This document shows, one piece after another, positions 11,125 through 40,841 of a stretch of DNA of 64,000 bases. The notes under the pieces were generated by a model. The model was not told the origin of the DNA and ran no database searches. It worked only from the letters and a program-made list of their open reading frames with translations. Origin of the DNA: Acidobacteriota bacterium. GTDB taxonomy: Bacteria; Acidobacteriota; Terriglobia; Terriglobales; Acidobacteriaceae. Each line of letters starts with the position of its first letter. Position 1 is the stretch's first letter. The position numbers and the translations under genes are program-made. The stretch is from positions 186,001 to 250,000 of the forward strand of contig JAJZVX010000001.1 in the NCBI GenBank assembly GCA_021846985.1, given 5' to 3'.

Positions 11125-12591
11125 CTAGTGGTTTTCGATGCTTGCGTGCGATGGTCCGATGCTGCGGCTCACACCGCCCTGTGGCGCGATCCGCCGATAG
11201 GCCTCTTCCAGGCCGCGGCGTCGCGCGGCTTGCACGATCCCTACCATCCATTCCGGGGTGGCAAGGGCGTGGAGGTGCGTATATCCGGCCATGGTATTGT
11301 TCTGCACAAGAAAATCCCGCCCGGCGCGGCATCCGGCGCCTCGCAGAACGGCGCAGGCGGTGGGAACAGCGCTCTCGTCATCGACGATGCGGGAGTAGTG
11401 GAATTCATGTCCGCGCAGCATGGTTCCCTGCGGGAAGAAGGGGTTGGGAGCGTCCACCCGTAGTTCGCAGTAGCCGTGGCCCTGCGGCGCGTCAAAGACC
11501 TCGACATGTAGCGGGAAGACGTCGGCCATGGGATAGAGCCTGCCCTTCCAGGTCATGTGACGCGCCAGGAGCATGAGTCCGCCGCATTCGGCATAAATAG
11601 GCAGGCCGCGCTTGCTGGCCGCGCGGAGCGATTGAAGGAATGCCTGGTTTGCGGAGAGTTTCTGCGCGTGGGTTTCGGGAAATCCGCCGCCAATATACAA
11701 CGCATCCAGGGTTTGCGGCAGGGCGTTTTCGTCAAGGGCCGAACAGGGCACCAACTCGGCCCCGGCGCGCTCGATCTCTTCGAGATTCTCCGGGTAATAA
11801 AAACTGAAAGCCGAATCGCGCACATATCCGATGCGCAGGCCGCACGCGTCGGGCGCCGCGGGTGGAGTCTGCGCGGGCAACTCGAGCGGGGGCGCATCGC
11901 GGCCAATGGTGAGCGCCATTTCAGCGTCCAGACGATTCTCGACCAGGCTCAACAACTCCTGTTCCGCACGGCGCAGATCCTGGTGCTCCTGCGGAGGAAG
12001 CAGGCCGAGGTGCCGCCCGGGAATGGGATTGCTGGCAGCTCTTGGCAGCGCGCCGAGCACGGGGATTCCACAGCGCGACTCGATGGCTGCGCGCAATACA
12101 TTCTGGTGTCTGCGGCCGTTCACGTTGTTGAGCACGACGGCGCGGATGGCGAGGCCGGGATCGAAATGCTGGCATCCGAGCACGAGCGCTGCGGCAGTAC
12201 AGGTCATCTTGGTGGCGTCGACAACCAGCACAATGGGAGCGGAGAGGACACGCGCCAAAGCGGCGCTTGAGTGTGTTCCGGCGGCGTCAAAGCCGTCGAA
12301 AAGGCCGCGATTTCCCTCGATAAAATTGACTCCGTCCGCAATGCCGTTGCGGAAAAAAGAAGAGCGCACGGTATCCGCGCCCATCAGGAAAGTATCGAGA
12401 TTGCGCGCCGGGTGAGCCGATGCGCGCGCCAGCCATGAGGGGTCGATGTAGTCTGGTCCCTTCTTGAAGGCGCGCACCGGGATTCCCGCCCGGCGCAAAA
12501 GCAAAAGCAGTCCCAAAGAGACCACGGTCTTGCCGGAGTCGCCGGAGAGGCCCGCGACAAGCAGGCGCGGCATGGCACGCATAGGATTCAC
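11125..12591 (-). CDS. dsrN: DsrN, siroheme/cobyrinate a,c-diamide synthase-like amidase
   Basis: 488-residue CbiA-type glutamine-dependent amidase. N-terminal P-loop in GLSGDSGKTVVS, a substrate region with YIDPSW, and a class I glutamine amidotransferase domain with the nucleophile cysteine in PIYAECGGLMLL. In dsr operons this protein (DsrN) is thought to amidate siroheme to the siroamide found in DsrAB. The neighbours dsrD and cobA support that reading over a cobalamin role. The start is a GTG at 12591; ATG codons at 12582 or 12573 are equally possible, and no strong ribosome-binding site decides. Confidence 0.88.
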   Translation of the reverse strand: MNPMRAMPRLLVAGLSGDSGKTVVSLGLLLLLRRAGIPVRAFKKGPDYIDPSWLARASAHPARNLDTFLMGADTVRSSFFRNGIADGVNFIEGNRGLFDGFDAAGTHSSAALARVLSAPIVLVVDATKMTCTAAALVLGCQHFDPGLAIRAVVLNNVNGRRHQNVLRAAIESRCGIPVLGALPRAASNPIPGRHLGLLPPQEHQDLRRAEQELLSLVENRLDAEMALTIGRDAPPLELPAQTPPAAPDACGLRIGYVRDSAFSFYYPENLEEIERAGAELVPCSALDENALPQTLDALYIGGGFPETHAQKLSANQAFLQSLRAASKRGLPIYAECGGLMLLARHMTWKGRLYPMADVFPLHVEVFDAPQGHGYCELRVDAPNPFFPQGTMLRGHEFHYSRIVDDESAVPTACAVLRGAGCRAGRDFLVQNNTMAGYTHLHALATPEWMVGIVQAARRRGLEEAYRRIAPQGGVSRSIGPSHASIENH

Positions 12592-12609: not shown

Positions 12610-12873
12610 CTAGGCGGAGGGCTGCGATCCTTCCTTGGGCGGTAGCTGAATGTAAGAGCCGCCGAGATAGCTGTAAATGCAGCGTCCGGAGTCGATGAGA
12701 ATCCGGATGGCCTTTTTACAGTCGTCCTTGCTGCAGGCAGCCTCGCCATGCTGGGCAATCATCGCCTTGGTAAGGTCCATGGCCTTGAGGTTCTTTTTGC
12801 CTTCGCACTCGGCAATCATCTGGTACATTTCTTCGGCCAGTTTCTCGATGGGAACAGGCGCAGTTTCGCTCAT
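12610..12873 (-). CDS. dsrD: DsrD, activator of dissimilatory sulfite reductase
   Basis: 87-residue winged-helix protein, close to the ~78 residues of Desulfovibrio DsrD. Seen: an alpha-helical N-terminus (EEMYQMIAECEGKKNLKAMD), KDDCKKAIRILIDSGRCIY and the end motif YLGGSYIQLPPKEG. DsrD is known as an allosteric activator of DsrAB during sulfite reduction and is typical of reductive-type systems. Its start overlaps the cobA stop by 4 bases (ATGA), so it is translated as part of the dsr operon. It coexists here with a DsrL, usually linked to oxidative systems. Confidence 0.88.
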   Translation of the reverse strand: MSETAPVPIEKLAEEMYQMIAECEGKKNLKAMDLTKAMIAQHGEAACSKDDCKKAIRILIDSGRCIYSYLGGSYIQLPPKEGSQPSA

Positions 12874-13727: not shown

Positions 13728-14936
13728 TCAGTGCGAGGCGGTTCCGGCCACCAGGGTGCTTTCATGCACTTCCATTTCTCCAACCTCTTTGCGCACACCA
13801 AGAGCGATTTTGTAAAACACGGTGATCATGAAAGCCCCGATGGCCCATATGCCTAAGACGATGCTCCACTCCGGAAGGGTAGGCGTGTAGGTGGCAATGG
13901 TATCGAGTGGCGAGGGCACGAAGCCGCCCACGATCAGCCCCAGACCCTTATCCAGCCAGAGGGCGAGAAACACGCAGACGCACGCGACCGGCAAAAGCAG
14001 GCGGTTGCGGCGCCACGAAGGAACCAGCAGCAGGACCAGAGAGACGATGGCCAGCAGGACCGAGAGCCACATCCAGGGCACAAGATGATGGTTGCCGCGC
14101 AGTCCCCAGTAGAGATATTCGAGGTGGGCTACATCGCCCGGGATGCGGCTGTAGAGCACCGTGAATGCCTCGACCAGGATGAAGAAGACATTGATCGACA
14201 TGGCGTAGGCCACGATGACTGCGAGCGTGTCAATGGCCTTCTGGCCGGCGTCGAACCCGGCCATCTTGCGCAGAAGGAGGCAGAAGAGGATGAGCAACGC
14301 GGGACCGGAGCAGAAGGCGCCGGCCAGGAAGCGAGGCGCCATGATGGCCGTGAGCCAGAAGGAACGGCCGGGCAGTCCGCTATACAGGAACGCGGTGACT
14401 GTGTGAATGCTAACGGCCCAGGGAATGGAGAGGAGAATGACCGGCCTGATCCATGCAGGAGGGGCAACTTCCTCGCGTTCGGCGGTGAGCGTGACCAGCG
14501 TGATGACGGCGTTGAGCAGCAGGTAGCCACCGAGCGAGATCATGTCCCAGAACATCAGCGACCACGGCGTGGGATGAAGGATCATGTTGAGCATCCGCGC
14601 CGGTTGGCCCAGGTCGACGAAGATGAAGAGGATGCACATGACTACGGCGGTGATGGCCAGGAATTCGCCGAGAATCGTGATGCGGCCAAACTGCTTGTAG
14701 TCGTGCAGGTAATAGGGCAGCACCACCATGACAGCCGAGGCGGCGACGCCCACGAAGAAGGTGAACTGGGCGATATAAAGTCCCCAGCTCACATCGCGGC
14801 CCATGCCCGTGACGCCCAAGCCTACGTTGAATTGGTAGAGGTAGAAGCAAAGAGCGGCCGCGATGACGCCCAGCAGGCAGAACAGCCATATCCAGTAGCG
14901 GCGGCTTCCTACGATGGCTTTTTCGAACATGAACAT
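13728..14936 (-). CDS. dsrP: DsrP, NrfD-like membrane subunit of DsrMKJOP
   Basis: 402-residue polytopic membrane protein of the NrfD/PsrC family with about ten hydrophobic helices; it exchanges electrons between menaquinone and the periplasmic DsrO/DsrJ. The start is set at 14936 (MFMFEKAIVGSRRYW), four bases after the dsrO stop. A longer in-frame start lies inside dsrO and is not family-like. The cytoplasmic C-terminal tail is short. Last gene of the MKJOP block, followed after 84 bp by cobA. Confidence 0.9.
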   Translation of the reverse strand: MFMFEKAIVGSRRYWIWLFCLLGVIAAALCFYLYQFNVGLGVTGMGRDVSWGLYIAQFTFFVGVAASAVMVVLPYYLHDYKQFGRITILGEFLAITAVVMCILFIFVDLGQPARMLNMILHPTPWSLMFWDMISLGGYLLLNAVITLVTLTAEREEVAPPAWIRPVILLSIPWAVSIHTVTAFLYSGLPGRSFWLTAIMAPRFLAGAFCSGPALLILFCLLLRKMAGFDAGQKAIDTLAVIVAYAMSINVFFILVEAFTVLYSRIPGDVAHLEYLYWGLRGNHHLVPWMWLSVLLAIVSLVLLLVPSWRRNRLLLPVACVCVFLALWLDKGLGLIVGGFVPSPLDTIATYTPTLPEWSIVLGIWAIGAFMITVFYKIALGVRKEVGEMEVHESTLVAGTASH

Positions 14937-14940
14937 GGCG

Positions 14941-15720
14941 TCACACCAGGTAGTACACGGACGGGCCGGTACCGAGTTCGGGCTCTCGCTGAATGGCGAA
15001 GCGTTGGCGCAGCAGTTGCCGCGGTTCGGAGTTGGGGTCGGCCAGATTGCCAAAGACAAGCGCCTTTTGCGGACAGACCTCGACACAGGCAGGGCTCAAA
15101 CCCTGCGCCAGACGCTCTTCGCAGAAGTTGCACTTTTCCACCACGCCTTTGGTGCGGGTGGGGAAGTCGGGGTTGATGTGGGCGATGGCCGGGCGCGGGT
15201 CAAACCAGTTGAAGCTACGCGATCCGTAAGGACAGGCGGCCATGCAATAGCGGCAGCCGATGCAGCGGTGCCAGTCCATCATCACGATGCCGTCGTCACG
15301 CTTCCAGGTGGCCTGCGTAGGGCAAACGTGGACACACGGGGGGCTGGCACAGTGATTGCACATGAGCACGACGGGAGCCTGCGCATCGCTCTGCCCGGCA
15401 TAGCTCGATTGCGTGAAGGGAAAGACGGTCTCGAAAGGCTGAGTCCAGACCCACTTGACCTGGTGTTTCGGATCATCGAACTGGGGGACATTGTGCGCTG
15501 AGTTGCAGGCCCGGATGCAGATGTCGCAGTTCTTTTCTTTCTGGCATTTCTGCAAATCGACAACCATACCCCAGCGCACGGGCTGAGAACTTTGGGCGGC
15601 CGGGGAGGCATTCGCGGATGGGGCGCTTCCGGTGACGGCACGCGTAGTTTCGATGGCCCCGGCCGCCAGGAATGACAACCCGGTGAGCCGCAGAAAGTCC
15701 TTCCTGGTGATCTTCTTCAT
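14941..15720 (-). CDS. dsrO: DsrO, periplasmic ferredoxin-like iron-sulfur subunit
   Basis: 259-residue protein with a Tat-type signal at the N-terminus (MKKITRKDFLRLTGLSFLAA); the twin arginine is an RK variant. Four ferredoxin-type cysteine groups follow: CQKEKNCDICIRAC, CNHCASPPCVHVCP, CIGCRYCMAACP and CNFCEERLAQG...CVEVCP, the pattern of four [4Fe-4S] clusters as in DmsB/NrfC proteins. It links DsrJ hemes to DsrP in the periplasm. The ATG overlaps the dsrJ stop (ATGA) and is preceded by CCAGGAG; longer starts inside dsrJ are rejected. Confidence 0.92.
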   Translation of the reverse strand: MKKITRKDFLRLTGLSFLAAGAIETTRAVTGSAPSANASPAAQSSQPVRWGMVVDLQKCQKEKNCDICIRACNSAHNVPQFDDPKHQVKWVWTQPFETVFPFTQSSYAGQSDAQAPVVLMCNHCASPPCVHVCPTQATWKRDDGIVMMDWHRCIGCRYCMAACPYGSRSFNWFDPRPAIAHINPDFPTRTKGVVEKCNFCEERLAQGLSPACVEVCPQKALVFGNLADPNSEPRQLLRQRFAIQREPELGTGPSVYYLV

Positions 15721-16229
15721 GGCATGCTCCTGGGGAAGGACAAGGATTGTGGATGGGGCGCCTGAGCAGGGAAGCGAGAAGGCGAAGTGAACGCCAGGTG
15801 CGGCGCGGCTGCCTCCGGCTGCATGGGCGGAAGCGATGTTCCGGCCACATGGGTTTGGGGCTGGTTGTGACAATTCCAGCAATAGGGTCCGGAGACGCCG
15901 GCATAAGAGTGGCAACGATCGCAGAACTGCTCTTTGTTATGGCAGTCGAGGCAGGTTTGGGTCAGGCTTTTGTCGTAGACTTTGCCATTGAACGCGACGT
16001 AGCGCCGCTGGCCCAGCCGTACGACTTCCTCGCGCCAGCGCAGAAGCAACACCATGTGCGATGCACGCATATACTCGACCGGCGCGACACATTGCGTCTG
16101 GTTGGCAGGGAGTGCGAGGTTGGGCATCCGGGCCAGATTCTTGGTTCCCAGGTGCGCACACCAGAACGGAGCCGTCAGTGCGACGGCAAAGACAGCCAGC
16201 CCGCCGACAATCCAGACGCGGTCACGCAT
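15717..16229 (-). CDS. dsrJ: DsrJ, triheme cytochrome c
   Basis: 170-residue periplasmic protein anchored by an N-terminal signal helix (residues ~5-25). Three CxxCH heme motifs: CLDCH, CDRCH and CWNCH. In known DsrJ one heme has an unusual histidine/cysteine ligation; a candidate cysteine lies earlier in QTQCVAPVEYMR. The C-terminal ~35 residues are rich in proline, alanine and serine and look poorly conserved. It overlaps dsrK by 8 bases and dsrO by 3. Confidence 0.92.
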   Translation of the reverse strand: MRDRVWIVGGLAVFAVALTAPFWCAHLGTKNLARMPNLALPANQTQCVAPVEYMRASHMVLLLRWREEVVRLGQRRYVAFNGKVYDKSLTQTCLDCHNKEQFCDRCHSYAGVSGPYCWNCHNQPQTHVAGTSLPPMQPEAAAPHLAFTSPSRFPAQAPHPQSLSFPRSMP

Positions 16230-17844
16230 GGCGGGCCTCGCTTTCTCCGCTGGCCAGCACGGATTCGGTGGCCAAAGCCTCGCCGCGCAAGTCGGTGGTG
16301 CGCTCCTTTTCGCCGGTCATCACCAGTGCGTTGCCGACGAGTTCGTGCACGCCGCCAACCTCAACCCCCGGCACCCAGTATTCGAGGAGCGTGGGCAGCG
16401 TGGCCTTGTCGATGGCGCAGATGCATGTGAGTAGATTGACGCCGTATTTCTCTTTCACATATTTGACGGCGTTGGCGCGCGGGAACCCTCCGCGCAGGCG
16501 GATTTCCAGGTTTTCGTCGGTGCCCAGTCCGGCGCCGCTGCCACAGCAGAAGGTTTGCTCGCGAATGGTGTTTTCCGGCATCTCGTGAAAGCGGCGGGCG
16601 ACATGATTCAGGATGTAGCGCGGCTCTTCCAGCAGGCCCATGCCGCGCGCCGGGTTGCAGGAGTCGTGATAGGTCACGTTCCAATGGTCGTTGCGGCCCC
16701 GATCGAGCCGGAGCTTGCCGTGATGGATCAGGTCGGCGGTGAACTCGCAGATATGCACCATCCTGGTGGAGCGGGCATTTTCAAAGACGGTTCCCGTGAC
16801 CGGTGAAACGGGCACCTCCAGGAAATCGGCTGGGCCGTTCATGGTGTCCATATATTGATGCAGCACGCGCCACATGTGCCCGCATTCGCCGCCCAGGATC
16901 CACTTGACGCCCAGGCGTTTGGCCTCGTCGTAGATCTTGGCGTTCAGCCGCTTCATCAGTTCGTGCGAAGCGAAGGAGCCGAAGTTGCCGCCCTCGGAGG
17001 CATAGGCGCTCACGGTGTAGTCAAGGCCGATTTCATGGAACAGCATCATATAGCCGAGCAGCGTGTAGTAATGCGGCGTGGCGAAGTAATCGGCCGAGGG
17101 CATGACGAAGAGAATCTCCGCGCCCTTGCGGTTGATGGGCATCTCGATCTTGAGCCCGGTGATCTCCGAGGCTTCGTCCGCAGCGAAATCGATGCTGTCT
17201 TTGAACCCGTGAGGCTGAATGCCCAAGTGGTTGCCAGTGCGGTAGCAGTTGGCGACGGGCTCCATCACCCAGTTGATGTTGCATCCGATGAGGGTGAGCA
17301 ACTCGCGGCCCAGCAAGGTGATCTCGGCGGTGTCGATGCCATAAGGGCAGAAGACGGAGCAGCGACGGCATTGCGTGCACTGATAGAAGTAGTAGTACCA
17401 CTCCTTGATTACGTCTTCGGTGAGTTCGCGCCCACCGGCCAGAGAACCAAAGATGCGTCCGCTCAGCGTGAAGTAACGGCGGTAGACAGAGCGGATCAAC
17501 TCCGCGCGCGCCACCGGCATGTTTTTGGGATCGGCCGTGCCGAGATAGAAATGGCACTTGTCGGCGCATGCCCCGCAACGCACGCAAACATCCATGAAGA
17601 GACGGAAGGAGCGAAATTTGTCGAGCCGTTCTTTCATGCCGGCGAGGATCGTCTTCTTCCAGTCCGGAGGCAGCTTCCAGTCGCTGTCGGTGGGCTGCCA
17701 CACGCGCGGATTGGGAAGACCGAGATAGGTCAGATTTTTCGGAGCTGCGCTGTAGCACATGGAGCCCTTGCGGAACTCGACGTGCGGATCGCGCCAGTCG
17801 CCGCGAGGCGGCTTGGGCTCAATTTGTATGAGCGTTTCCTGCAT
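16222..17844 (-). CDS. dsrK: DsrK, HdrD-like catalytic subunit
   Basis: 540-residue cytoplasmic iron-sulfur protein proposed to reduce the DsrC trisulfide. Two ferredoxin-type motifs (CVRCGACADKC and CTQCRRCSVFCP) are followed by two CCG-type half-domains (HDSCNPARG and FCCGSGAG) that in HdrD-like enzymes hold the non-cubane catalytic cluster. The start at 17844 (MQETLIQIEPKPP) is supported by GAGGGCG upstream and overlaps the end of dsrM by 26 bases; an upstream in-frame start adds a non-family leader. A paralogue (dsrK2) lies at 23553-25160. Confidence 0.93.
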   Translation of the reverse strand: MQETLIQIEPKPPRGDWRDPHVEFRKGSMCYSAAPKNLTYLGLPNPRVWQPTDSDWKLPPDWKKTILAGMKERLDKFRSFRLFMDVCVRCGACADKCHFYLGTADPKNMPVARAELIRSVYRRYFTLSGRIFGSLAGGRELTEDVIKEWYYYFYQCTQCRRCSVFCPYGIDTAEITLLGRELLTLIGCNINWVMEPVANCYRTGNHLGIQPHGFKDSIDFAADEASEITGLKIEMPINRKGAEILFVMPSADYFATPHYYTLLGYMMLFHEIGLDYTVSAYASEGGNFGSFASHELMKRLNAKIYDEAKRLGVKWILGGECGHMWRVLHQYMDTMNGPADFLEVPVSPVTGTVFENARSTRMVHICEFTADLIHHGKLRLDRGRNDHWNVTYHDSCNPARGMGLLEEPRYILNHVARRFHEMPENTIREQTFCCGSGAGLGTDENLEIRLRGGFPRANAVKYVKEKYGVNLLTCICAIDKATLPTLLEYWVPGVEVGGVHELVGNALVMTGEKERTTDLRGEALATESVLASGESEARHA

Positions 17845-18832
17845 CTTCGCCCTCGAGTGGAATGCCGGCGCCCACAAGCTTGTCGCGGAACTCATTTTCC
17901 CACTCCGCGTAGGTGTGCTTTGTTACCGGATGATTCCAGGGATTGATGTGCCGCCGCCGGCGGCTGTCGTTAGCCAGGTTGCGGGTGGGGCTGAGGAACA
18001 CTCCGCCCATGTGCATGAGCTTGCTGAAAGGAAAGTAGGCAGCCAGCGCGCAGACCAGCACAAGATGAGTGAAAAAAAGCGGACTCGGCATGTTCGGGCC
18101 GAGGGGATGGAAAGCGGCCAGGCTCAGCGCAAACTGCTTGATGCCAAGAATGTCTACGCGGACGAAGTAGCGCATGAGAACGCCTGAAACGGCGATGCCC
18201 AGCAGCAGGAACAGGGCGAAGTAGTCAGTGAAGAGCGAGATAAAGCGGACGGCGGGATCGCGAAAGCGCCGTAGAAGCAGATATGCCAGCGCGCCCAGGA
18301 CAACAATGTCGGAAAGATAGAGTTGCGGAGCGCCGAGTTGAAAAAAACTGTCGAGCCGCTCCAGGCCATCGACCCAGGCCGGGATGGGCTCGATGAAGAG
18401 GCGCAGGTGCCGGAGCACGATGAGCAGCAGCGACCAGTGAAAGGCCAGAGCGCCCAGCCAGAGGTACCTGTTTTCGCTCAGGGTCAGACGTTTTCCAGCG
18501 AGGCGGGCGCGGTTGTTGCGAAACAGCGAGCGGAAAAGCAGAATCTCCATCGCCATGCGGACGAGCACGGCGCCGCGTGTCGAAGGATTATCGACGCTTG
18601 CCGGCTTGATCCAGGGGAGGGATTTCTGCTGGCCGCAAGTCGTGGGAATATGAAACGGGACTGGCGTCCATGCCCAGCGCAGAATGCGCGCGCAGAACCC
18701 GGCCAGTAATATGGCAAAGGCCGCGTAGGGAACGATGAATGTAAGAATGCCGCGTCCCGCCCCTGTGCTTCCGCCCGCAAAACCGGCAAGAACCAAGAGC
18801 AGCACCGCCAGCAGGGAGTAGAGCGCATTCAT
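17819..18832 (-). CDS. dsrM: DsrM, cytochrome b (NarI-like) subunit
   Basis: 337-residue membrane protein with about six helices and conserved histidines in LAFHWSLLLIVLRHLRLF and FFTHLVLVCALAAYFPFSKLMH, candidate heme b ligands. It oxidises menaquinol and passes electrons to DsrK on the cytoplasmic side. The start overlaps the stop of the upstream RsbRD_N gene (ATGA). First gene of dsrMKJOP. Confidence 0.92.
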   Translation of the reverse strand: MNALYSLLAVLLLVLAGFAGGSTGAGRGILTFIVPYAAFAILLAGFCARILRWAWTPVPFHIPTTCGQQKSLPWIKPASVDNPSTRGAVLVRMAMEILLFRSLFRNNRARLAGKRLTLSENRYLWLGALAFHWSLLLIVLRHLRLFIEPIPAWVDGLERLDSFFQLGAPQLYLSDIVVLGALAYLLLRRFRDPAVRFISLFTDYFALFLLLGIAVSGVLMRYFVRVDILGIKQFALSLAAFHPLGPNMPSPLFFTHLVLVCALAAYFPFSKLMHMGGVFLSPTRNLANDSRRRRHINPWNHPVTKHTYAEWENEFRDKLVGAGIPLEGEDAGNAHTN

Positions 18833-19281
18833 GGTGTTTCCCCTTCTTCGGATGCGGCGTACCGCGCTTTCAACCGCAACTCATTGATCCGCAGCGCGAA
18901 GATCTGTTCGCGGCAGCCCATGTAGTGATCGAATGCCAAGAGCGCCAGCTCGTCGATGCGGCTTTCGAGGGAGTCCGGAACGGCGCCGCCCCATTCTCGG
19001 ATGGCGGTGCGCAGGTCGAAGACAAAGCGCACCGCATCGGAAGGACCGAAGTCCTGCACCGCGCGCATCCGGATGATCGCATCGAGCGCCTGCGCGATGC
19101 GCTGCCTGTCCATCTTTCCCATCAGCTCGCCGGCCAGGATGGTCAGGCTTTCCCGAAGCGTGTGCCCAACCGGATTGCGAAAAGGATCCTGTTCACCGCG
19201 CAGGAACGGAAGGGTCTGCGCGGGGTACGATTGCAGAACCCGCTCGACCCACCGTTCAACGATGGCCCTGTCCGCGCTCAT
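18829..19281 (-). CDS. RsbRD N-terminal-domain protein in the dsr operon
   Basis: 150-residue alpha-helical protein resembling the RsbRD_N domain, which in other proteins is the sensory part of stressosome-type regulators. Recognisable segments: FLRGEQDPFRNPVGHTLRES, RMRAVQDFGPSDAVRFVF and ALLAFDHYMGCREQIFALR. No STAS domain or other output domain is present. It starts 6 bases after dsrC and overlaps dsrM by 4, so it is an integral operon member. Similar stand-alone domains occur next to dsrM in sulfate reducers, where a role with the membrane complex is assumed but not proven. Confidence 0.75.
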   Translation of the reverse strand: MSADRAIVERWVERVLQSYPAQTLPFLRGEQDPFRNPVGHTLRESLTILAGELMGKMDRQRIAQALDAIIRMRAVQDFGPSDAVRFVFDLRTAIREWGGAVPDSLESRIDELALLAFDHYMGCREQIFALRINELRLKARYAASEEGETP

Positions 19282-19287
19282 CGCCGG

Positions 19288-19605
19288 TTACACGCATCCC
19301 GTCGGTTTGGGCAGGCCGGCGAGCTTGCAGGCGCCTTTGGCGGGGCCAGAAGGAAAGAGCTGATAGATTTCGCTCAGCTTGTATCCTGTCTCCTTGCAGA
19401 CTTTGCGCACCATGGGAGCGATGCCAAACTGGAGATAATAGTTGCGGATGTAATTAATTACCTTCCAGTGCCCGTCGGTCAGCTGGTCGATCGACTCGGT
19501 TCTGGCAAAATCCTTGGCTACCGCGTCGCTCCACTTATCCGGCTCCTGCAGAAAGCCGTCCTCATCCACCTCGTACTGTCTTCCTTCCACTTCAAAGATC
19601 GACAC
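19288..19605 (-). CDS. dsrC: DsrC, sulfur-carrying partner of DsrAB
   Basis: 105-residue protein with the flexible C-terminal arm intact: the two essential cysteines lie in GACKLAGLPKPTGCV, 11 residues apart as in true DsrC (not TusE or RspA). It receives the sulfite-derived sulfur from DsrAB as a trisulfide, which DsrMKJOP then reduces. The dense dsr neighbourhood (dsrL 14 bases upstream, RsbRD_N gene 6 bases downstream) confirms the role. Confidence 0.95.
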   Translation of the reverse strand: MSIFEVEGRQYEVDEDGFLQEPDKWSDAVAKDFARTESIDQLTDGHWKVINYIRNYYLQFGIAPMVRKVCKETGYKLSEIYQLFPSGPAKGACKLAGLPKPTGCV

Positions 19606-19619
19606 CGTTCACCTCGCAG

Positions 19620-20813
19620 TCAGTTCATTTCGATGTATCCGCAGGGACATGATTCCGCGCATTTTCCGCATCCGTTGCAGAGGTCGAGCTTGATTTTGTA
19701 GTGTTCGCCCTTGGGCAGTTTGACAAAGCAGTTTTTGCTGCAGTACATCCAACACGTTTCGCAGTCCATGCACATGCCGCAGGACATGCAGCGGGTGGCT
19801 TCGGCGAGGGCCTCGGCTTCAGTGAGGGCCTCCGCTTCGCTGCTCAGCGGCGCCGCTTCTGGATACCAGTCCAGCTTCATCCGGTCCGAACGGATGACAG
19901 CTGCCGGCCAGGTCTGGGGCACCGTGCAACATTCGAATTGGGCGGCGATGACTTCCGCTACTGCGCGTCCCTGGGCGATGGCGACGCTGATGGTGTTCAA
20001 TGCCTTGCGATCGACTTCCACCGCCTCCTGAAGCGGGATCGCAGGCAATTCCGCCGGCAACTCGCCCACGGTGGCCGCCTGGCCATCCGTGCCTTCGCGC
20101 AGTTCCAGTTGCGCTGCCTTCTGCAGTCCCAAGGCAAAAAAGACCGCATCGTAGCCGCGCCGCAACTCCTCCAGTGAAAGATCGCGGCCCACCGCGCAGC
20201 CGCTGCGCATTTCGATCCCCAACTGAAGGATGTTGGCAATCTCCCCGTCCAGCACCTCGGCAGGGAGGATGGTCCGCGGAACGCGATAGCGCATCATGCC
20301 GCCGGGCCTGGGCGCGGCGTCGATGAGCGTTACCGCATAGCCTTTGCGCGCCAGGTGATAGGCTGCGGAGAGGCCGGCGGGCCCTGCGCCCACCACCGCG
20401 ATGCGCGCAGCGGCAGCACGCCTGGGGGCGGCAAGCTCCACGCGCAGCCCGTTGGCGATGGCGAAATCCCCCACAAACCGTTCCAGCTGCCGGATGGATA
20501 CGGCGCCGTCCTTGGCCTTGCGGTTACAGTTCAACTCGCACGGATGCTGGCAGACGCGCCCGCAGATGGCCGGGAAAGGGTTGGCCTCCAGAATCTTTCG
20601 CCAGGCAAGTTCGAAAGCCTGGGCGGCGGTGCGCCCGTAAGCCTGGTGCTGCGCCAGCGTCACCAGCCATGAGCGCACGTCGGCGCTGTTGACACAGCTA
20701 TGCATGCACGGCGCGGTCTTGGCAGTGTACGAGGGACGGCGCGGACTGACGTCGGCGCCGCTCGCAGTGGCATGTTTGATGACTGGCTTCTTGACTTCCT
20801 TGAACAGTCCCAT
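19620..20813 (-). CDS. dsrL: DsrL-like iron-sulfur flavoprotein lacking the NAD(P)H domain
   Basis: 397 residues, against roughly 650 in full-length DsrL. Present: the N-terminal Fer4_20-type cysteine domain (about residues 36-96), the FAD Rossmann loop VVGAGPAGLSAAYHLARKGY (140-159) with PRPGGMMRYRVP, and the C-terminal double ferredoxin segment (CMSCGMCMDCETC... and CNGCGKCAESCP, 342-390). Absent: the second Rossmann fold of the GltD family and its FAGGD motif. The chain jumps from the FAD domain end (YDAVFFALG, ~221-229) across about 35 residues to the post-domain helix VAIAQGRAVAEVIAAQ. The frame is open throughout. NAD(P)H use therefore looks impossible; electrons could come from ferredoxin or another donor. 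Lies between dsrB and dsrC. Confidence 0.85.
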   Translation of the reverse strand: MGLFKEVKKPVIKHATASGADVSPRRPSYTAKTAPCMHSCVNSADVRSWLVTLAQHQAYGRTAAQAFELAWRKILEANPFPAICGRVCQHPCELNCNRKAKDGAVSIRQLERFVGDFAIANGLRVELAAPRRAAAARIAVVGAGPAGLSAAYHLARKGYAVTLIDAAPRPGGMMRYRVPRTILPAEVLDGEIANILQLGIEMRSGCAVGRDLSLEELRRGYDAVFFALGLQKAAQLELREGTDGQAATVGELPAELPAIPLQEAVEVDRKALNTISVAIAQGRAVAEVIAAQFECCTVPQTWPAAVIRSDRMKLDWYPEAAPLSSEAEALTEAEALAEATRCMSCGMCMDCETCWMYCSKNCFVKLPKGEHYKIKLDLCNGCGKCAESCPCGYIEMN

Positions 20814-20848: not shown

Positions 20849-21934
20849 TCAGTACCGGATATGGGCCGACCGCGCGAACGTCAATCCCGCGTGTTTGAAA
20901 TCGTCAATGTGGTACCGGGTGAACTCGAAGCCGGTCAACTCGAAGAACCTGGGCCAGCCCACGCGGTCGATCCATTCGCCCACGCGCTCATACTTGCGCG
21001 CGTTCTGGCGATAGACATCGACGATCTTGACTACCGCCTCGACGACCTCCGGCCAGTGCGGAGGATTGTTGGGTAGAAACGGAATGGCGAGCTTCGAGAA
21101 TCTGGGCTCGCTGCGCGCGTTGCTCACCTTGCCGCCAACCCAGATGGAGAGGCCATCGTTCTCGGCATCGTTCAACTGCATCGCGGGGCACACGGTGTAG
21201 CAGTTGCCGCAGTACATGCACTGTTCTTCGATCACGTCCACGGAGGGCTTGCCTTCGAAGGTGGCCGAGCGGATGGCTCCGGTCGGGCACGACGAGATCA
21301 GCGTGGGCACCTCGCAGACCTTGGGGAGGATATCCTTCTGGATCTTCGGCGGACGGCGATGTACGCCCAGGATGGCAATGTCGGAGCAGTGTACCGCACC
21401 GCACATATTCAGGCAGCAGGCCAGCGCGATGCGCAGCTTGGCGGGCATATCTTCGTGCGTGAAGCGGTCGCAGAGGGCATCCATGACGGACTTGACGATG
21501 CCCGATGCGTCGGTGGCCGCAGAGTGGCAGTGCACCCATCCCTGCGTATGCACGATGTTGCTGATGGAGTTGTTGGTTCCGCCCACGGGCACGCCCATGG
21601 CCGCCAGATCCTGCTTGAGCGGCTCGATTCCGGCCGGATCTTCGAGCAGAAACTCGATATTGTTGCGGCTGGTGAAGCGCAGATGGCCTCCGCAATATTT
21701 GTCGGCCAGGTCGGCGAACTTGCGTATGGTCTGGATGCTGAGCAACCGGGGCGCACCGCCGCGCACGGTGTACAGACGGTCGCCAGATTCGGCCACGTGG
21801 CACAACACGCCCGGGGCCAGCTTCTCGTGATACTTCCACTTTCCGTAGTTCTTCCGGATGATGGGCGGAAGATACTTGTCATAGGACGGAGGGCCAATGT
21901 CGGTGAGTCGCGGCTGAAGTGGAGTTGTTGTCAT
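20849..21934 (-). CDS. dsrB: dissimilatory sulfite reductase beta subunit
   Basis: 361-residue siroheme/[4Fe-4S] subunit carrying the catalytic siroheme of the DsrAB heterotetramer. Cluster-binding cysteines are seen in [13 protein letters not shown] and CPTG, and an inserted ferredoxin domain in [12 protein letters not shown]. The start overlaps the dsrA stop by 4 bases, coupling the two subunits. 35 bases separate it from dsrL. Whether the enzyme is of the reductive or oxidative type needs a tree; DsrD in the operon favours reductive. Confidence 0.96.
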
Positions 21935-23148
21935 TGCTCGCCCTCCTTTTCGGCTTGGAAGTAAATGTAGGGATTGTCGCGGGGCGCCGAGACCATCTCC
22001 GGCGCGGGATCGAGCCCGATGCCCTCAAGAAATGCGGGCAGCCCTACGCGCTGGATCAACTCGCCGATGCGTTCGCGGTTGGTGCCATATTCGTCCCAGA
22101 AATCCCAGATGCGCGAGACCAGTTCCTTGATGGTCTCAAACAACTCGTCAGCGGGAACAAAGGGAATGAGCACGGAGGAAAGCAGCGCACCCTGGAGGAT
22201 GGGAGCCTTGGCGCCCAGCAGGATTACCGCGCCTTTCTCCTTGCCGGGGCGAAGCGCCTTGGGCATGACGTTGATGCAGTGCATGCAGCGCACGCAGTCG
22301 CGGTTGTCAATGCTGAGCTTCTTGCCGTCCCAGTCCATGCACTTGGTTGGGCAGTGGCTGCAAACGTCCTTTTGAATGTCAAGGCCGGCGGCGGCGTAAT
22401 TGGCCACCTCCGCGTGATCGACCTGCATTTCGTCCTTCCACGTTCCAATAATGGACATGTCGGCGCGGGCGATGGAGGCTACGCAGTCATTGGGGCAGGC
22501 CGAGCACTTGAACTTGAACTTGTAGGGGAAAGCAGGGCGATGCAGTTCGTCCTGGTAGTGCATGGTCAGGTCATAGCAGAGCTTCATGGAGTCATAGCAA
22601 GCCCACTCGCAACGCGCCATGCCCACGCAACTGGAAGGCGTGCGCACCGCCGATCCGGAGCCGCCCAGATCGAAGCCGGCGTGCGTAAGCTCCTGGAAAG
22701 TCGGCTCCAACTGGTCCGTGGTTGTTCCGAGGAGGATGATGTCGCCCGTGGAGCCATGCATGTTGGTCACTCCGGAGCCGCGCCGCTCCCAAATATCGCA
22801 GATGGTGCGCAGCGCCTCACTGGAGTAAAACCAGCCGGCGGGATGATTGACGCGCAGGGTATGGAAGTGGGCTACATTGGGGAACTGCTCGCCTACGTCG
22901 CTGTAGCGGCCGATCACGCCGCCGCCATAACCCAGTACGCCGACAAGCCCGCCATGCTTCCAGTGACTTTTCTTGTCCTCGTACGATAACTCCAATTGTC
23001 CCAAAAGGTCGCGGGCACTGTCGCTGGTCTTGGCGGCGGCTTTGATCTCGGACACGAAACTTGGCCACGGACCTTTCTCAAGTTCGTCGAGCAGTTTCGT
23101 CTGCGGTTGGTGGTTTGCGCGCTTCTTCTCGTCAGGAGCGTCTGCCAT
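21931..23148 (-). CDS. dsrA: dissimilatory sulfite reductase alpha subunit
   Basis: 405-residue subunit. Siroheme-coupled cluster motifs: [18 protein letters not shown] and [12 protein letters not shown]; the ferredoxin domain has CSHCPTKC and CVRCMHC. The start is ATG 23148, preceded by AAAGGAG at good spacing; a GTG three bases earlier is ignored. It is the first gene of a 14-gene minus-strand operon reaching 10473, with a CRP/FNR-like palindrome and a -10-like box about 70-110 bp upstream. Confidence 0.96.
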
Positions 23149-23218
23149 CACGCTCTCCTTTCGCCGGAATTTGTCGGGTTATAAGACTGGATCGGGCTCT
23201 CTCGTAACTGCGCTTCGG

Positions 23219-23552: not shown

Positions 23553-25160
23553 CTATCGCCACTCCCACTCGATAAATCCGGGCTTTACGTCGACCATCGC
23601 GTTCACAATGAGTTCGACGAGCCCGCCGTACAGAATCCGGTTTTCCTCCCATAGGTTGTAGTAAGCGAGCATGTCGCGGAACTGGCCTTTGCAGTTACTG
23701 CACGGCGCGCACAGATACTTTTGCGTTTCCGGGCCGATGCAGTCGGCGAAAGCGTTCAATATCTGCTCCATTTTCTTGCGCCCCGCCACCTGGAAGCGCC
23801 AGTCGGTGAAGTTGTTGCCGCTCATGATGGCAAAGCCGCTGCCGCCGCCGCAGCAGTAGTTGTCCACGCCGTGCGGCTCCATCTCGCGGAACCGCGGACA
23901 AAGCTGGTGGAGAATCTCGCGCTGCGGCTCTACCACACCCATCAGGCGCACCATGTTGCAGGGGTCGTGGAGGGTGACGGGAAAATCGTTGCGCGCCGGG
24001 TCGAATTGGATCTTGCCGCTCATCACAATGTCTCGCAGCAAGGGCAGGGAGCTCATGCGGGGAATATTGAGATCGCCGGTCAAGAGGCGGTCAGCGGTGA
24101 CGCAAAGCGCTTTGTGGGCGTGGCCGCATTCGCCGAGCACGATGCGCTTGACGCCGAGCTTGCGGGCGGCTTCAACGTGCTTGATCGCCACGCGCGCAAG
24201 CTGCGCATCGTCGTACCACAGGCCATAATTGATGGAGTCGTAACCGGCCAATTCCGAGGACATGGTCCAGTTAACCCCAGCCATGGTGAGAATCAGCGCA
24301 TAAGCGCCGGGATTCTCGGGCCAGGCCATGATTTCGCCGGCGTTGTGGATGAGAAGCACGTCCGCTCCCTGCACATCCCAGGGGGTGTGAACCTCGATGC
24401 CCGTTTTTTCGCTGATGTCCTCGTCGATGAAGGCGATGTTATCTTTCACGATTTCGGCCGTCATGCCCGTCGAGGAGCCGACCTTGAGCTGCAGCATGGA
24501 TCCCTGTTCGTGGAGCTCCTTGGCGGCGATGCCCATCTCCTGGCTGAAGAGCTTGCGTAACTCACGGGCCACCAGGCCGTTGTCGCAGCCGATGGGGCAG
24601 GACTGCGCGCAGCGCCGGCAAAGGTTGCAGCGGTACGACAGCTCGACGAGCCGCGCCACCAGCGGCCAGTTGAGGCGAATGCGGCCGTGTTGCCATGCCG
24701 ACAGCAGACCGCCGTGCTTGATGTACTTGAAATAGAGACGGCGCAGGACCTCGGAGCGGAAGGTGGGCCGGTAGAGTTCGTTGCGCCCACTGGCCTCGAA
24801 GATATGGCAGGACGCGGCGCAGGTCTGGCAGCCGGTGCAGTGCTCCATGGTGAGCAGTAGGGGCTGCAGAAAGGTCCAGTTGTTTTCTTTATCGAAGAGC
24901 TTGTCGAGGCCGGAAAGGAACTGCGCGACCAGTTTTTTCTCCTCTTCCGGAGTCTTGGGCTGGGGCACGTTGACCGCGCAGGTATCGTCCAGCCCGCATT
25001 CGTAGCGGTCGACGCACTGCGCGGAAAGAGGCGGCCAGGGGTGTTGACGCTCCGCGTTGGACAGCGGCTCAGGCAGCGGCATCAACTCCTCGTTCTCGAC
25101 ATGGGTCAGGGGCATGCGATCGTTGCGGGAAAGGTCATGCAGATCGGCAGAGCGGCTCAC
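23553..25160 (-). CDS. DsrK2, second HdrD/DsrK-like iron-sulfur protein
   Basis: 535-residue paralogue of DsrK. Two ferredoxin-type motifs (CTGCQTCAASC and CNLCRRCAQSCP) precede two CCG-type half-domains (HDPCNMVRL and YCCGGGSGF), plus a CAPCSNCKGQ segment near the C-terminus. It overlaps the upstream dsrM2 by 4 bases. DsrMK pairs without JOP occur in Gram-positive and archaeal sulfate reducers; related HmeCD and TmcBC modules also match this architecture. Here it sits between dsrA and the apr operon, so a sulfur role is likely, but its substrate (DsrC trisulfide or another disulfide) cannot be read from sequence. Confidence 0.82.
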   Translation of the reverse strand: MSRSADLHDLSRNDRMPLTHVENEELMPLPEPLSNAERQHPWPPLSAQCVDRYECGLDDTCAVNVPQPKTPEEEKKLVAQFLSGLDKLFDKENNWTFLQPLLLTMEHCTGCQTCAASCHIFEASGRNELYRPTFRSEVLRRLYFKYIKHGGLLSAWQHGRIRLNWPLVARLVELSYRCNLCRRCAQSCPIGCDNGLVARELRKLFSQEMGIAAKELHEQGSMLQLKVGSSTGMTAEIVKDNIAFIDEDISEKTGIEVHTPWDVQGADVLLIHNAGEIMAWPENPGAYALILTMAGVNWTMSSELAGYDSINYGLWYDDAQLARVAIKHVEAARKLGVKRIVLGECGHAHKALCVTADRLLTGDLNIPRMSSLPLLRDIVMSGKIQFDPARNDFPVTLHDPCNMVRLMGVVEPQREILHQLCPRFREMEPHGVDNYCCGGGSGFAIMSGNNFTDWRFQVAGRKKMEQILNAFADCIGPETQKYLCAPCSNCKGQFRDMLAYYNLWEENRILYGGLVELIVNAMVDVKPGFIEWEWR

Positions 25161-26134
25161 TTCCTCACCTCCTCAGCAGGATTTGACGCGGCGATGTCCG
25201 CCCAGCTTTTCTTGCCGTCTGCGCCCATGTGCGGTGCGGCCCAGGTAGGACGCAAGCGAAGGGAGGTCGCGATCTTGTGCTCCAGAGGCCCGTTTCTTGG
25301 GTTGCGCTGGTCGTCCCATCGCACCGAGTGCCAAGTAAAGTACTTGGCAATAAAGTGGGCCATGTGCGTGAAAGGAATGTAGGCCAGCAGCAGAGAGGCG
25401 AGCACAATGCCGAGGCTGGGAACTACGGCGGCGCGGGCGCCGAGGTCGAAGTGCAGAGCGCCGCGGAGGAGGGCCTTCATTGGCGCGGGGCCTTGCAGCA
25501 GGCCGGCGCCCAGCAGGGCGAAGGCGGCAATGAAGAAGGCGAGGTTGAAGAGGTCTCCGGGACGGGTGTAGTTTTTGAGCGCCGGGTCGGCGATGCGGCG
25601 ATAGAGCAAGAGCAGCGCTCCGGCCAGGATCAGGAGGATGGCGACCAATGCGGCCCATTTGCATGCCAGCACGAGTGCGGAGAACAGAAACGCGGATGCG
25701 GGGCTGTGCATTAGGGAACCAGGCAGGGCCGAGAGGACGCCCAGCCCGATGGAGGCAATTACGAGGTAGAGGCCGAAGTGAAACAGGAATGAGGGCAGCC
25801 AGAGCGGTCGATTGAACTCCCACAATCCTCTAAGAAAGAGGATTTCGCGGAGCATGGTCGTCCATTCGCGGCGATGGTGAACGGCCTGTGGACTCAGCCA
25901 CCAGTCGCCGGATTCGAAGTACGAGCCGCCGTGCTCGACGCGGCCGGGTTCTTCGTGGGGAACAGGATACAGCTCCCAGCGCAAATGAAGCGGCGTGCGC
26001 GCATAAGTATAGATTCGCCAAAGACACCCAGCCAGGAAGAACCCCAATCCACCGTACAGGGCAAGATATACGGCCATCGTCATGCGTCTTTGCCTCCGGG
26101 ACCAGCCGTCGGGGTACGGCTGCTTGGAGGTCAA
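25157..26134 (-). CDS. DsrM2, cytochrome b partner of DsrK2
   Basis: 325-residue membrane protein with about six helices and conserved histidines in FLFHFGLYLVIAS and FTHMAHFIAKYF, the NarI-like layout of DsrM. A soluble C-terminal tail of ~50 residues follows. Start uncertain: 26134, or an in-frame ATG about 18 codons later nearer the first helix. Two CRP/FNR-like palindromes lie 27-68 bp upstream. Forms a two-gene operon with dsrK2, divergent from aprBA. Confidence 0.8.
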   Translation of the reverse strand: MTSKQPYPDGWSRRQRRMTMAVYLALYGGLGFFLAGCLWRIYTYARTPLHLRWELYPVPHEEPGRVEHGGSYFESGDWWLSPQAVHHRREWTTMLREILFLRGLWEFNRPLWLPSFLFHFGLYLVIASIGLGVLSALPGSLMHSPASAFLFSALVLACKWAALVAILLILAGALLLLYRRIADPALKNYTRPGDLFNLAFFIAAFALLGAGLLQGPAPMKALLRGALHFDLGARAAVVPSLGIVLASLLLAYIPFTHMAHFIAKYFTWHSVRWDDQRNPRNGPLEHKIATSLRLRPTWAAPHMGADGKKSWADIAASNPAEEVRK

Positions 26135-26803: not shown

Positions 26804-27262
26804 GTGCCGAGCTTCGTCAATCCTGAGAAGTGCGATGGCTGCAAAGCATTGGACCGAACTGCGTGTCAGTACATCTGTCCGAACGACCTGATGGTGCTGG
26901 ACAAGAACACGCAGAAGGCCTACAACCGCGATCCCGCCATGTGCTGGGAGTGCTACAACTGCGTCAAGATCTGCCCTACACAGGCTGTTCAGGTTCGCGG
27001 CTACGCGGACTTTGTGCCCCTGGGTGCATCCGTGACGCCGCTGCGGTCCACGGACTCGATCATGTGGACTGTGAAGTTCAGAAACGGGAATCTGAAGCGT
27101 TTCAAGTTCCCGATCCGCACCACGCCGGAAGGCTCGGCAGTTCCGGACGGCGGTTTCGAGTCGAAAGGCGATCTGTCCAGTACGGCGCTTTTCACCGAGC
27201 CGGCGTCTCTGGGGTTGCCCGAGGTCCACGGCCTGAACACAAGAGGAGACGCCCATGCCTAA
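26804..27262 (+). CDS. aprB: adenylylsulfate reductase beta subunit
   Basis: 152-residue iron-sulfur subunit with two [4Fe-4S] sites: CDGCKALDRTACQYICP (long-spaced first motif) and CWECYNCVKICP. The C-terminal tail wraps AprA in known structures and is present here. GTG start with a very strong ribosome-binding site (GGAGGTGA) just upstream. Overlaps aprA by 8 bases. Together they reduce APS to sulfite and AMP in the cytoplasm. Confidence 0.95.
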   Translation: MPSFVNPEKCDGCKALDRTACQYICPNDLMVLDKNTQKAYNRDPAMCWECYNCVKICPTQAVQVRGYADFVPLGASVTPLRSTDSIMWTVKFRNGNLKRFKFPIRTTPEGSAVPDGGFESKGDLSSTALFTEPASLGLPEVHGLNTRGDAHA

Positions 27263-29171
27263 TCCTGAAGTCATAGTCGTCGAAACGGATCTTTTAATTC
27301 TGGGTGGAGGCATGGCGGCCTGCGGGGCTGCTGTGGAAGCTGCTCACTGGGCCAAGCAGAATGGCTTGAAAGTCACGCTGGTGGACAAGGCCGCTGTGGA
27401 CCGCTCCGGCGCCGTGGCCATGGGGCTTTCGGCGATCAATCAGTACGTGGGGCTGAAAGACGGCGCCAATACCCTCAAGGACTACGTGGACTACGTGCGC
27501 AACGACCTGATGGGCGTGACGCGCGAGGATCTGGTGGCGAATATTGCGCGCCACGTGGACTCGAGCGTTCATCTCTTCGAGAAGTGGGGTCTTCCCATCT
27601 GGAAGGATGAAGGCGGGAAGTACGTTCACGAAGGCCGCTGGCAGTTGATGATCAACGGCGAGTCCTACAAGGTGGTGGTGGCGGAAGCAGCCAAGAACGC
27701 ACTGCTGGGAAGCGGAGTTGGCCAGATCTTCGAGCGCGTGTTCATCGTCGGTCCGCTGATGGATGGGGACCGTTGCGCCGGCGCCGTGGGCTTTTCGGTA
27801 CGCGAGAACAAGGTGTATATCTTCCGCTCCAAGGCCACGCTGACGGCCATGGGCGGCGCGGTGCACGTCTTCAAGCCGCGGAGTTCGGGCGAAGGCATGG
27901 GGCGCGCCTGGTATCCACCGTGGAACTCGGGTTCCTCCGCTTACTTCACGCTGAAGGCGGGCGCGGAGATGACCTGCCAGGAAGTCCGCTTCATTCCTGT
28001 GCGTTTCAAGGATGCGTATGGGCCGGTGGGGGCGTGGTTCCTGCTGTTCAAGTCGCGCGCCACCAACGCCATGGGCGGCAATTACATGGAGGAGCGCCGG
28101 TCGGAACTGGAGAAGTGGGGTCCGTACGGACGAGTAAAGCCGGTTCCCGCTAACCTGCGCAACTATCTCGGCATGCTGGACGTGCTCGAAGGCAAGGGTC
28201 CAATCTCCATGAGGACGGAGGAAGCCCTGACCAAGATCGCGGAGCAGTACAAGGACGATCCCAAGGCCTACCAGAAGAAGATGAAAGAGTTGGAGTCCGA
28301 GGCTTGGGAAGACTTCCTGGACATGACGATCTCTCAGGCGATTCTATGGGCTGCTTCCGACGTGCAACCCGAGCAGAAGAGCTCCGAGATTGCCGCTGCC
28401 GAGCCTTACTTCATCGGGTCGCACTCGGGAGCCTCGGGCGCGTGGTTGAGTGGTCCGGAAGACCTGCAAACTGGCGAGACCAAGTCCGAGTACTTCTGGG
28501 GCTACACGAATATGTCCACCGTCAAGGGCCTGTTCTGCGCCGGCGACGCCTCGGGCGCTTCCAGCCACAAATTCTCTTCCGGTTCGCACGCCGAAGGCCG
28601 TATCGCCGCCAAAGCGGCCGTCAAGTTCATCGTGGAGAACAACTCTCTGCCGAAGCTTGACCAAGCCGAAGCGGACAAGATTGTGGCCGAAGTTCTGAAG
28701 CCGCTGGAGACGTTTGAGCAGAACAAGAAACTGACCACTGACGAGGACGTTAATCCCAACTACATCAAGCCGCGCTCGTTCATGTTCCGGCTGCAGAAGA
28801 TCATGGACGAATACGCGGGCGGTGTGACGGCCCAGTTCAGCACCAACAAGGCCCAGTTGGAACGGGCTCTGGAGTTGCTGGCCTTCCTGAAGGAAGACGC
28901 GGAAAAGCTGGCGGCCGCCAACACCCACGAATTGATGCGGTGCTGGGAAAACGTCCATCGCATGTGGCAGGCGGAAGCCCACGTTCGCACCATGCTGTTC
29001 CGTGACGAAACGCGCTGGCCAGGCTACTACATGCGCGCCGACACGCCGCAACTGGATGAAGAGAAGTGGCATGTCTTCGCCAATTGCCGGTGCGATCCGA
29101 AGACAGGGACATGGGAGATGCTGAAGCGGCCCATCTACCGAATCTTCGAACCGCAGGCCGCGGCCAAGTAA
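27255..29171 (+). CDS. aprA: adenylylsulfate reductase alpha subunit
   Basis: 638-residue FAD-containing catalytic subunit of the fumarate-reductase superfamily. Seen: [16 protein letters not shown] at the N-terminus (FAD loop), [37 protein letters not shown] around the active site, and [17 protein letters not shown] near the FAD end. Full length; no truncation. Catalyses APS + 2e- to sulfite + AMP. Located directly before the QmoABC block that supplies its electrons. Confidence 0.96.
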
Positions 29172-30322: not shown

Positions 30323-30342
30323 CAGCTCGCTTGGTTAGGAAT

Positions 30343-33862: not shown

Positions 33863-33864
33863 CC

Positions 33865-38191: not shown

Positions 38192-38200
38192 TGAACGGCC

Positions 38201-40804: not shown

Positions 40805-40841
40805 TGGCGGCCGCCGCGACTGCACAAGGGGGAGACGTCTG

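Follow-up and report, generated by a model that had tools for sequence, protein, structure and literature searches.

We report here that a DsrL encoded in a dsr operon of an acidobacterial genome has lost the whole of its NAD(P)H-binding domain. The same short form recurs in related genomes, and its sequence evolution resembles that of full-length DsrL. We consider it rather probable, on the strength of sequence comparisons, that this protein is a derived DsrL-2 which would relay electrons to the sulfite reductase DsrAB independently of NAD(P)H.

In the main text of Loeffler et al. 2020 (PMC7596348), an NAD(P) domain is a criterion for inclusion in DsrL, the YRR motif is ascribed to all DsrL-2 proteins except those of two Candidatus genera, and DsrL-2 is presented as the entry point of NADPH electrons to DsrAB in reductive organisms. 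Otherwise, the text of PMC10591310 names the donor to DsrAB as a yet unknown oxidoreductase. Hausmann et al. 2018 describe acidobacterial DsrL as shorter.

Results

The gene lies in a 64,000-nucleotide stretch of DNA (the window), which belongs to contig 48 of a genome of 3.79 Mb with a completeness rating of 100%. It is an open reading frame of 397 codons on the minus strand, running from ATG to TGA, while the plus-strand frame of the same interval contains stops. The minus-strand order is dsrM2, dsrK2, dsrA, dsrB, short dsrL, dsrC, an RsbRD_N-domain gene, dsrM, dsrK, dsrJ, dsrO, dsrP, a methyltransferase-like gene, and the dsrD-like and dsrN-like genes, and beyond the dsr genes the plus strand carries aprBA, qmoABC and sat (Table 1). 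The first-pass annotation had placed the gene between dsrB and dsrC in a reductive-looking operon, and the presence of sat, aprBA and qmoABC in the same window bears this out. The locus thus holds the set sat, aprBA, qmoABC, dsrABC, dsrMKJOP and dsrD of reductive-type sulfate reduction, with qmoA, qmoB, dsrJ and dsrD as presumed assignments that follow in part from gene position. The products of qmoA and qmoB are HdrA-like, score below the cut-offs of the HdrA-like models and are named by position; dsrJ has no Pfam match, and the dsrD-like protein has no match in Pfam or NCBIfam. The names of the dsrMKJOP genes, and those of the dsrD-like (from sequence and position), dsrN-like and dsrM2 (from position) genes, are our presumed assignments.

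Table 1. Features of the window and of two sets of comparison loci; positions refer to the window unless a locus label is given.
Feature	Position	Strand	Evidence
dsrN-like gene (CbiA/CobQ type)	11125..12591	minus	PF01656, PF07685
dsrD-like small protein	12610..12873	minus	sequence and position
dsrMKJOP block	13728..18832	minus	PF02665, Fer4_8, Fer4_11 and NrfD matches; same order in other loci
dsrP	about 15086-13728	minus	
dsrO	about 15915-14941	minus	
dsrJ	16229-15717	minus	
dsrK	17895-16222	minus	
dsrM	18832-17819	minus	
RsbRD_N-domain gene, dsrC/dsrM interval	18829..19281	minus	PF14361 1.8e-15
dsrC	19288..19605	minus	PF04358 6.2e-39
Short DsrL without NAD(P)H domain, 397 aa	20813..19620	minus	ORF, Pfam, full-length relatives
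C-terminal two-[4Fe-4S] ferredoxin, residues 338-397	19623..19802	minus	conserved cysteines
Post-domain helix, residues 269-293, AIAQGR	19935..20009	minus	AF2 model, alignment
Junction stub replacing NAD(P)H domain and GGD strand, residues 239-274	19992..20099	minus	alignment
FAD Rossmann half, residues 136-238, GxGxxG present	20100..20408	minus	Pfam, alignment
Remodelled flavin loop, residues 173-184, long-form GIPxYRLP to RVPRTILP	20262..20297	minus	alignment
N-terminal two-[4Fe-4S] domain, residues 30-122	20448..20726	minus	Fer4_20 and cysteines
dsrB	20849..21934	minus	NIR_SIR 2.9e-37 and position
dsrA	21931..23151	minus	TIGR02064 601 bits (cut-off 392.85)
dsrK2 (DsrK paralog), candidate electron source	23553..25160	minus	NF045796 DsrK 321.7 bits (below the cut-off of 400); distribution
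dsrM2 (membrane cytochrome-like), dsrK2 partner	25157..26134	minus	PF02665 9e-8
aprBA	26804..29171	plus	aprB PF12139 2.9e-36; aprA TIGR02061 886.5 bits (cut-off 641.75)
qmoABC	30331..35037	plus	qmoC NF038018 336.5 bits (cut-off 300)
sat (ATP sulfurylase)	35051..36319	plus	PF01747 2.6e-80
L027 dsr operon, L072 (long-form) type with short-type dsrL	L027 2021-13115		
Ca. Sulfotelmatobacter SbA1-type DsrL	L048 6001-7653; L049 6001-7602; L050 6001-7644; L051 6001-7644		

Some further features of the window can be recorded here. The RsbRD_N-domain gene recurs in 11/11 short-form and 13/13 long-form or eroded dsr neighbourhoods compared (the eroded form is described below). Two cytidylate-kinase-like genes (PF13189; 10473-11114 and 36323-37234), one of them with a BON domain, flank the dsr/apr/sat region. 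Shortly past sat, at 37277-41813, two TauE/SafE-type exporter genes surround one for a PPDK_N/PEP-utiliser protein; a sulfite or sulfate transport unit is a possible reading of the exporter genes.

Pfam recognizes in the short DsrL a Fer4_20 domain (residues 30-121), a Pyr_redox_2 match (residues 137-229) that covers the FAD Rossmann half and extends to position 108 in a profile of 291, and a Fer4_21 match (347-396) below its cut-off, and it finds no second Rossmann stretch in this protein. The nearest NCBIfam model is PRK12771, with a score of 319.9 against a cut-off of 516. The profile of 12 short rows aligns to that of 28 full-length rows with a probability of 100% and 53% identity. By hand count, about 174 residues of the acidobacterial DsrL-2 reference (553 residues) lie there opposite about 33 in the short form, in agreement with the first-pass estimate that some 170-200 residues, including the FAGGD motif, were gone. 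The absent segment is the NAD(P)H domain with its GGGDTA and YRR motifs and the C-terminal GGD flavin motif. Four motifs, namely GGGxTA, YRR, GIPx[YF]R and the C-terminal GD, each occur in 50/50 long rows and in 0/18 short ones. In the stub that remains, G250, E255, P257 and N273 are invariant in all 12 aligned short forms, and its ATVGEL stretch was considered as a possible diverged GGD strand.

A structure prediction, which had been suggested at the outset as a check, gave an AF2 model that likewise has no NAD(P)H domain (pLDDT 80.9, pTM 0.82, compared to 86.2 and 0.86 for the long DsrL of CO124). On NfnI (5jfc_L) the short model superimposes over 232 residues at 2.0 Å, spanning chain residues 48 to 472, and the long model over 395 residues at 1.7 Å. 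The best structural matches of the short model are 9bov_A (Z 31.6, 6.6 Å over 318 residues) and 9n5u_A (Z 30.6, 3.0 Å over 299), with 8oh5_C as a further one (Z 30.2, 2.3 Å over 281). The predicted protein would thus retain an Nfn-like core, with the C-terminal ferredoxin in a region of low confidence. Both the alignment and the model support the earlier observation that the join is in frame and that a helix resumes after the lost domain.

The conserved Fe-S cysteines are kept. At the N-terminus, C36, C40, C88, C92 and C96 occur in 13/13 short rows examined, and in the ferredoxin C342, C345, C348, C351, C354 and C358 in 13/13, and C379, C382, C385 and C389 in 12/12. The stretch between the end of the helix (293) and the first ferredoxin cysteine (342) is about 50 residues long, and the alignment to the long form shows a gap of 13 residues. 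Of the positions shared by at least 93% of 48 relatives (long, GltD-type and Nfn-type), GxGxxG, a GG pair, G229, G282 and 11 cysteines are also conserved in 13/13 short rows.

It is important to point out that the flavin site has undergone a second change, beyond what the first-pass annotation had described. GIPx[YF]R, which is also present in 4/4 eroded rows, is absent from every short form; in the GIPxYRL stretch of the 13 short rows, G is replaced by R, A, Q or F, and R by V, T, L or I, while the short row L141 has the G and has lost the R. In this fold, we take GIPxxR and GGD to line the part of the FAD with the isoalloxazine ring and the ribityl chain; remodelling would then concern the catalytic side, and the adenine side would be preserved. 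The earlier statement that the Fe-S, FAD and ferredoxin domains are all retained consequently holds for the Fe-S cysteines and GxGxxG, but the FAD domain is not intact, as GGD and GIPx[YF]R are lost. Because of these alterations, a redox-active FAD in the short DsrL is doubtful.

The search of relatives for the same short form, another of the checks proposed initially, was successful and yielded 18 distinct short sequences after removal of duplicates. Public assemblies hold 11 short loci, among them those of SbA5, a peat genome (MAG of Hausmann et al. 2018; its short dsrL is L023), and Terracidiphilus BA147. Of 398 sampled genomes from the family, 26 have a DsrL match at E ≤ 1e-60, one match in each, of which 17 are short and 9 long. 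The class sample (399 genomes) gave 18 matches, 6 of them short and one of the non-short ones cut by a contig end, and the phylum sample (396 genomes) gave 34 at the looser threshold of 1e-50, with 4 short and the other 30 not all confirmed as DsrL. The Acidobacteria with the short form come from soil and peat. In the genome studied here there is no second, full-length DsrL, the other matches being of GltD/Nfn type. At 15/15 short loci compared, the short dsrL sits between dsrB and dsrC, with dsrD in place of dsrB in L027 and its copy L098.

In a tree of 353 columns with the junction excluded, the short forms make up a single clade with 100/100 support (the trees exclude the partial loci L054, L088 and L097 and the fragment L173). 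They branch inside the acidobacterial DsrL rows that carry YRR, in a tree without DsrL-1 sequences. The nearest group consists of four long and four SbA1-type rows, the union having support of 80/73 in one tree and 93/81 in another. The SbA1-type DsrL (L048-L051), which we call eroded, keeps the domain, GGD and GIPxxR; its YRR loop is deleted and GGGDTA is changed to GAGxTA. Since the YRR loop of long DsrL presumably binds the NADPH phosphate, and both it and GGGDTA are lost, the use of NADPH by these long proteins is doubtful as well. L145, a long form with YRR intact, nests among the four eroded rows. GxGxxG reads IIGAGPAG in L051, and a motif count of 3 of 4 eroded rows is a fault of the search pattern.

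We now turn to selection, measured as dN/dS by the Nei-Gojobori method on unsaturated pairs. The values are 0.08-0.23 for short dsrL (9 unsaturated of 91 pairs) and 0.06-0.22 for 12 long and 3 eroded rows together (22 of 105), which shows that the short gene is under purifying selection much like that on long DsrL. In the five pairs examined, dsrA and dsrB have lower values (0.015-0.09), and the omega of 0.32 for dsrC in L028/L100 is a value underlain by few changes. The dsrK row of L021/L022 was dropped, since K was there aligned against K2 owing to contig ends. At the junction, pN reaches about 0.34-0.35 in 2/5 pairs tabulated, which is fast change.

The DsrL and DsrAB trees mostly agree, with L027 and, less surely, L029 as exceptions; in both, the short dsrL accompanies a DsrAB from a different branch. 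With concatenated DsrAB (32 rows; 8 loci with dsrA or dsrB missing or cut were left out, and L055 was left out of the clade tests), a single clade of the 10 short rows is rejected with p-AU 8.6e-7. The value is 1.2e-6 without L029, 0.0012 without L027 and 0.345 without both, and the conflict therefore comes from these two rows. Among 19 rows, the closest counterparts of the L027 genes dsrA, dsrB, dsrC, dsrM, dsrK, dsrJ, dsrO and dsrP are those of the long-form locus L072 (for example 88% for dsrA and 86% for dsrC), and that of dsrD is in L035. The dsrL of L027, by contrast, shares 64-68% identity with four of the short forms but 51% with that of L072. It is the N-terminal and FAD regions that carry the short-like signal; the ferredoxin at the C-terminus is not discriminating. 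Judging from these identities, a short gene probably replaced a long one in L027 and was kept, which is unlike the behaviour of a merely decaying gene, although this is one low-coverage contig of a single genome (coverage 2.3 according to the record title). L027 also suggests that dsrL alone can be exchanged between dsr operons.

Discussion

Several explanations other than a relay have to be weighed. The simplest, namely that assembly or binning removed about 500 bp, deserves practically no credence. The public short-form genomes are indeed metagenome bins by their record titles, but the same cut is found in several projects (including SbA5, BA147, AM-2014 and SRVP_22), and the substitutions shared in the GIPxxR loop lie away from the junction. 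An assembly deletion is refuted by the 18 distinct sequences with the same cut, which exclude both coincidence and a fault of the present assembly as its cause. It is also very unlikely that the gene is decaying on its way to loss. In the pairs examined dsrL evolves faster than dsrA and dsrB, which would fit such a decay, but a dN/dS like that of long DsrL, 18 distinct open copies and the apparent replacement in L027 speak against it.

The alternatives in which the protein still has a function are somewhat harder to dismiss. It could be a structural or regulatory subunit that holds DsrAB, DsrC or DsrMK together, without a working redox flavin and with little electron flow. It would fit this that two motifs of the long rows (50/50), GD and GIPx[YF]R, are missing from all 18 short ones, and that the junction changes rapidly in 2/5 pairs; a mere scaffold, on the other hand, would have no need for the Fe-S cysteines conserved throughout, and we regard this as unlikely. 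Less likely still is a split enzyme, in which the NAD(P)H-binding half is supplied in trans by another flavoprotein docking on the exposed face. Three GltD/Nfn-type proteins with 33-40% identity to the matched part (L002-L004) are encoded elsewhere in the genome and could be candidates, but they lie outside the window, and at 15/15 loci the short dsrL is adjoined only by dsrB or dsrD and by dsrC (a weak argument, as other genes there are not annotated singly).

We therefore return to the relay. As the NAD(P)H domain is lost and the gene is nevertheless kept by selection, these bacteria probably supply electrons to DsrAB in another way. The short DsrL would have no NAD(P)H half-reaction, and its electrons would come from another protein, which could be reduced ferredoxin, or else DsrM2K2 or DsrMK, which are membrane-bound and would take their electrons from quinol. 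Entry would be at an Fe-S domain or at the altered flavin site, and the [4Fe-4S] clusters that remain would conduct the electrons on to DsrAB, for the reduction of sulfite. We infer the docking on DsrAB and the carriage of electrons, and likewise the identity of the donor. The first-pass annotation had already proposed an alternative electron route. Its reductive setting stands, and NAD(P)H does seem unlikely as a direct donor, but a retained FAD with merely a changed donor is just one option, because GIPxxR and GGD are gone too.

As to the donor, K2 is present in 12/12 short-form, 2/4 eroded and 21/23 long-form genomes. It is thus compatible with a role as donor, yet, being present in most long-form genomes too, it does not explain the short form, and K2 as a donor specific to that form was rejected. 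Among the window ORFs of at least 100 aa between 8 and 45 kb, no neighbour specific to the short form was found, a comparison that covers the genes of the window against flanks often cut by contig ends. An antisense ORF in the neighbour table (18323-18709) is not a gene.

A bolder and rather doubtful extension of the relay would be that acidobacterial sulfite reduction was rewired off NADPH more than once, one clade having deleted the domain and a related group having lost the loop that binds the phosphate. Short DsrL would then be a four-cluster adaptor connecting DsrAB to the quinol pool via DsrM2K2 and, in minimal form, a naturally occurring case of the electron input other than NAD(P)H that has long been sought for DsrAB.

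A clade of sulfate and sulfite reducers that keeps a DsrL without an NADPH site uncouples the presence of DsrL from the conclusion that NADPH drives sulfite reduction. The short form is a warning against that annotation, and also a small protein with which to find the real donor of DsrAB. The SbA5 genome of 2018 carries this form, with the loss unremarked in the papers found. No paper noting the missing domain was found among the main texts covered: the string "truncat" is absent from those of PMC7596348, PMC10591310, PMC8528874, PMC10564751, PMC11406059 and PMC10504309, and SbA5 and SbA1 are absent from that of PMC7596348.

Compared with the features by which the main text of PMC7596348 recognizes DsrL, the gene is complete, in an organism with dsrAB, and the N-terminal two-[4Fe-4S] domain is present (Fer4_20, conserved cysteines). 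The FAD Rossmann fold keeps GxGxxG and has lost GD and GIPx[YF]R in 18/18, and the embedded NAD(P)-binding Rossmann domain is absent. The C-terminal two-[4Fe-4S] ferredoxin has its cysteines, the first of them about 50 residues past the helix end, where the description gives a linker of about 100, and the immediate neighbours are dsrB and dsrC, not pyruvate/ketoisovalerate:ferredoxin oxidoreductase genes. The YRR that marks DsrL-2 occurs in none of the 18 short rows. Because the NAD(P) domain is missing, we file the gene as a derived variant and not as a standard DsrL; by descent and position, as far as sequences tell, it is a DsrL-2.

Among known systems, GltD, the small subunit of glutamate synthase, has homologous N-terminal Fe-S and FAD regions; it keeps its NADPH domain and acts on GltB. 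The bifurcating transhydrogenases NfnB/NfnL and StnABC/NfnABC, which provide the best structural matches, keep the NAD(P)H domain, unlike the short DsrL. DsrL-1A of Allochromatium vinosum, compared here by the papers' descriptions, has the same overall plan of an Fe-S flavoprotein, but it is full length, uses NAD(H) and belongs to a sulfur oxidizer. The SbA1-type DsrL is related and has lost the YRR loop and GGGDTA, with the domain still present. The closest likeness is to the DsrL-2 of subcluster 2C (Diao et al. 2023; Ca. Sulfopaludibacter SbA3, CO124), which shares the place with dsrAB and dsrC, both [4Fe-4S] domains, the FAD half and the position in the tree; the short form differs from it in having 397 instead of about 553 residues and in being without the NAD(P)H domain, YRR, GGD and GIPxxR.
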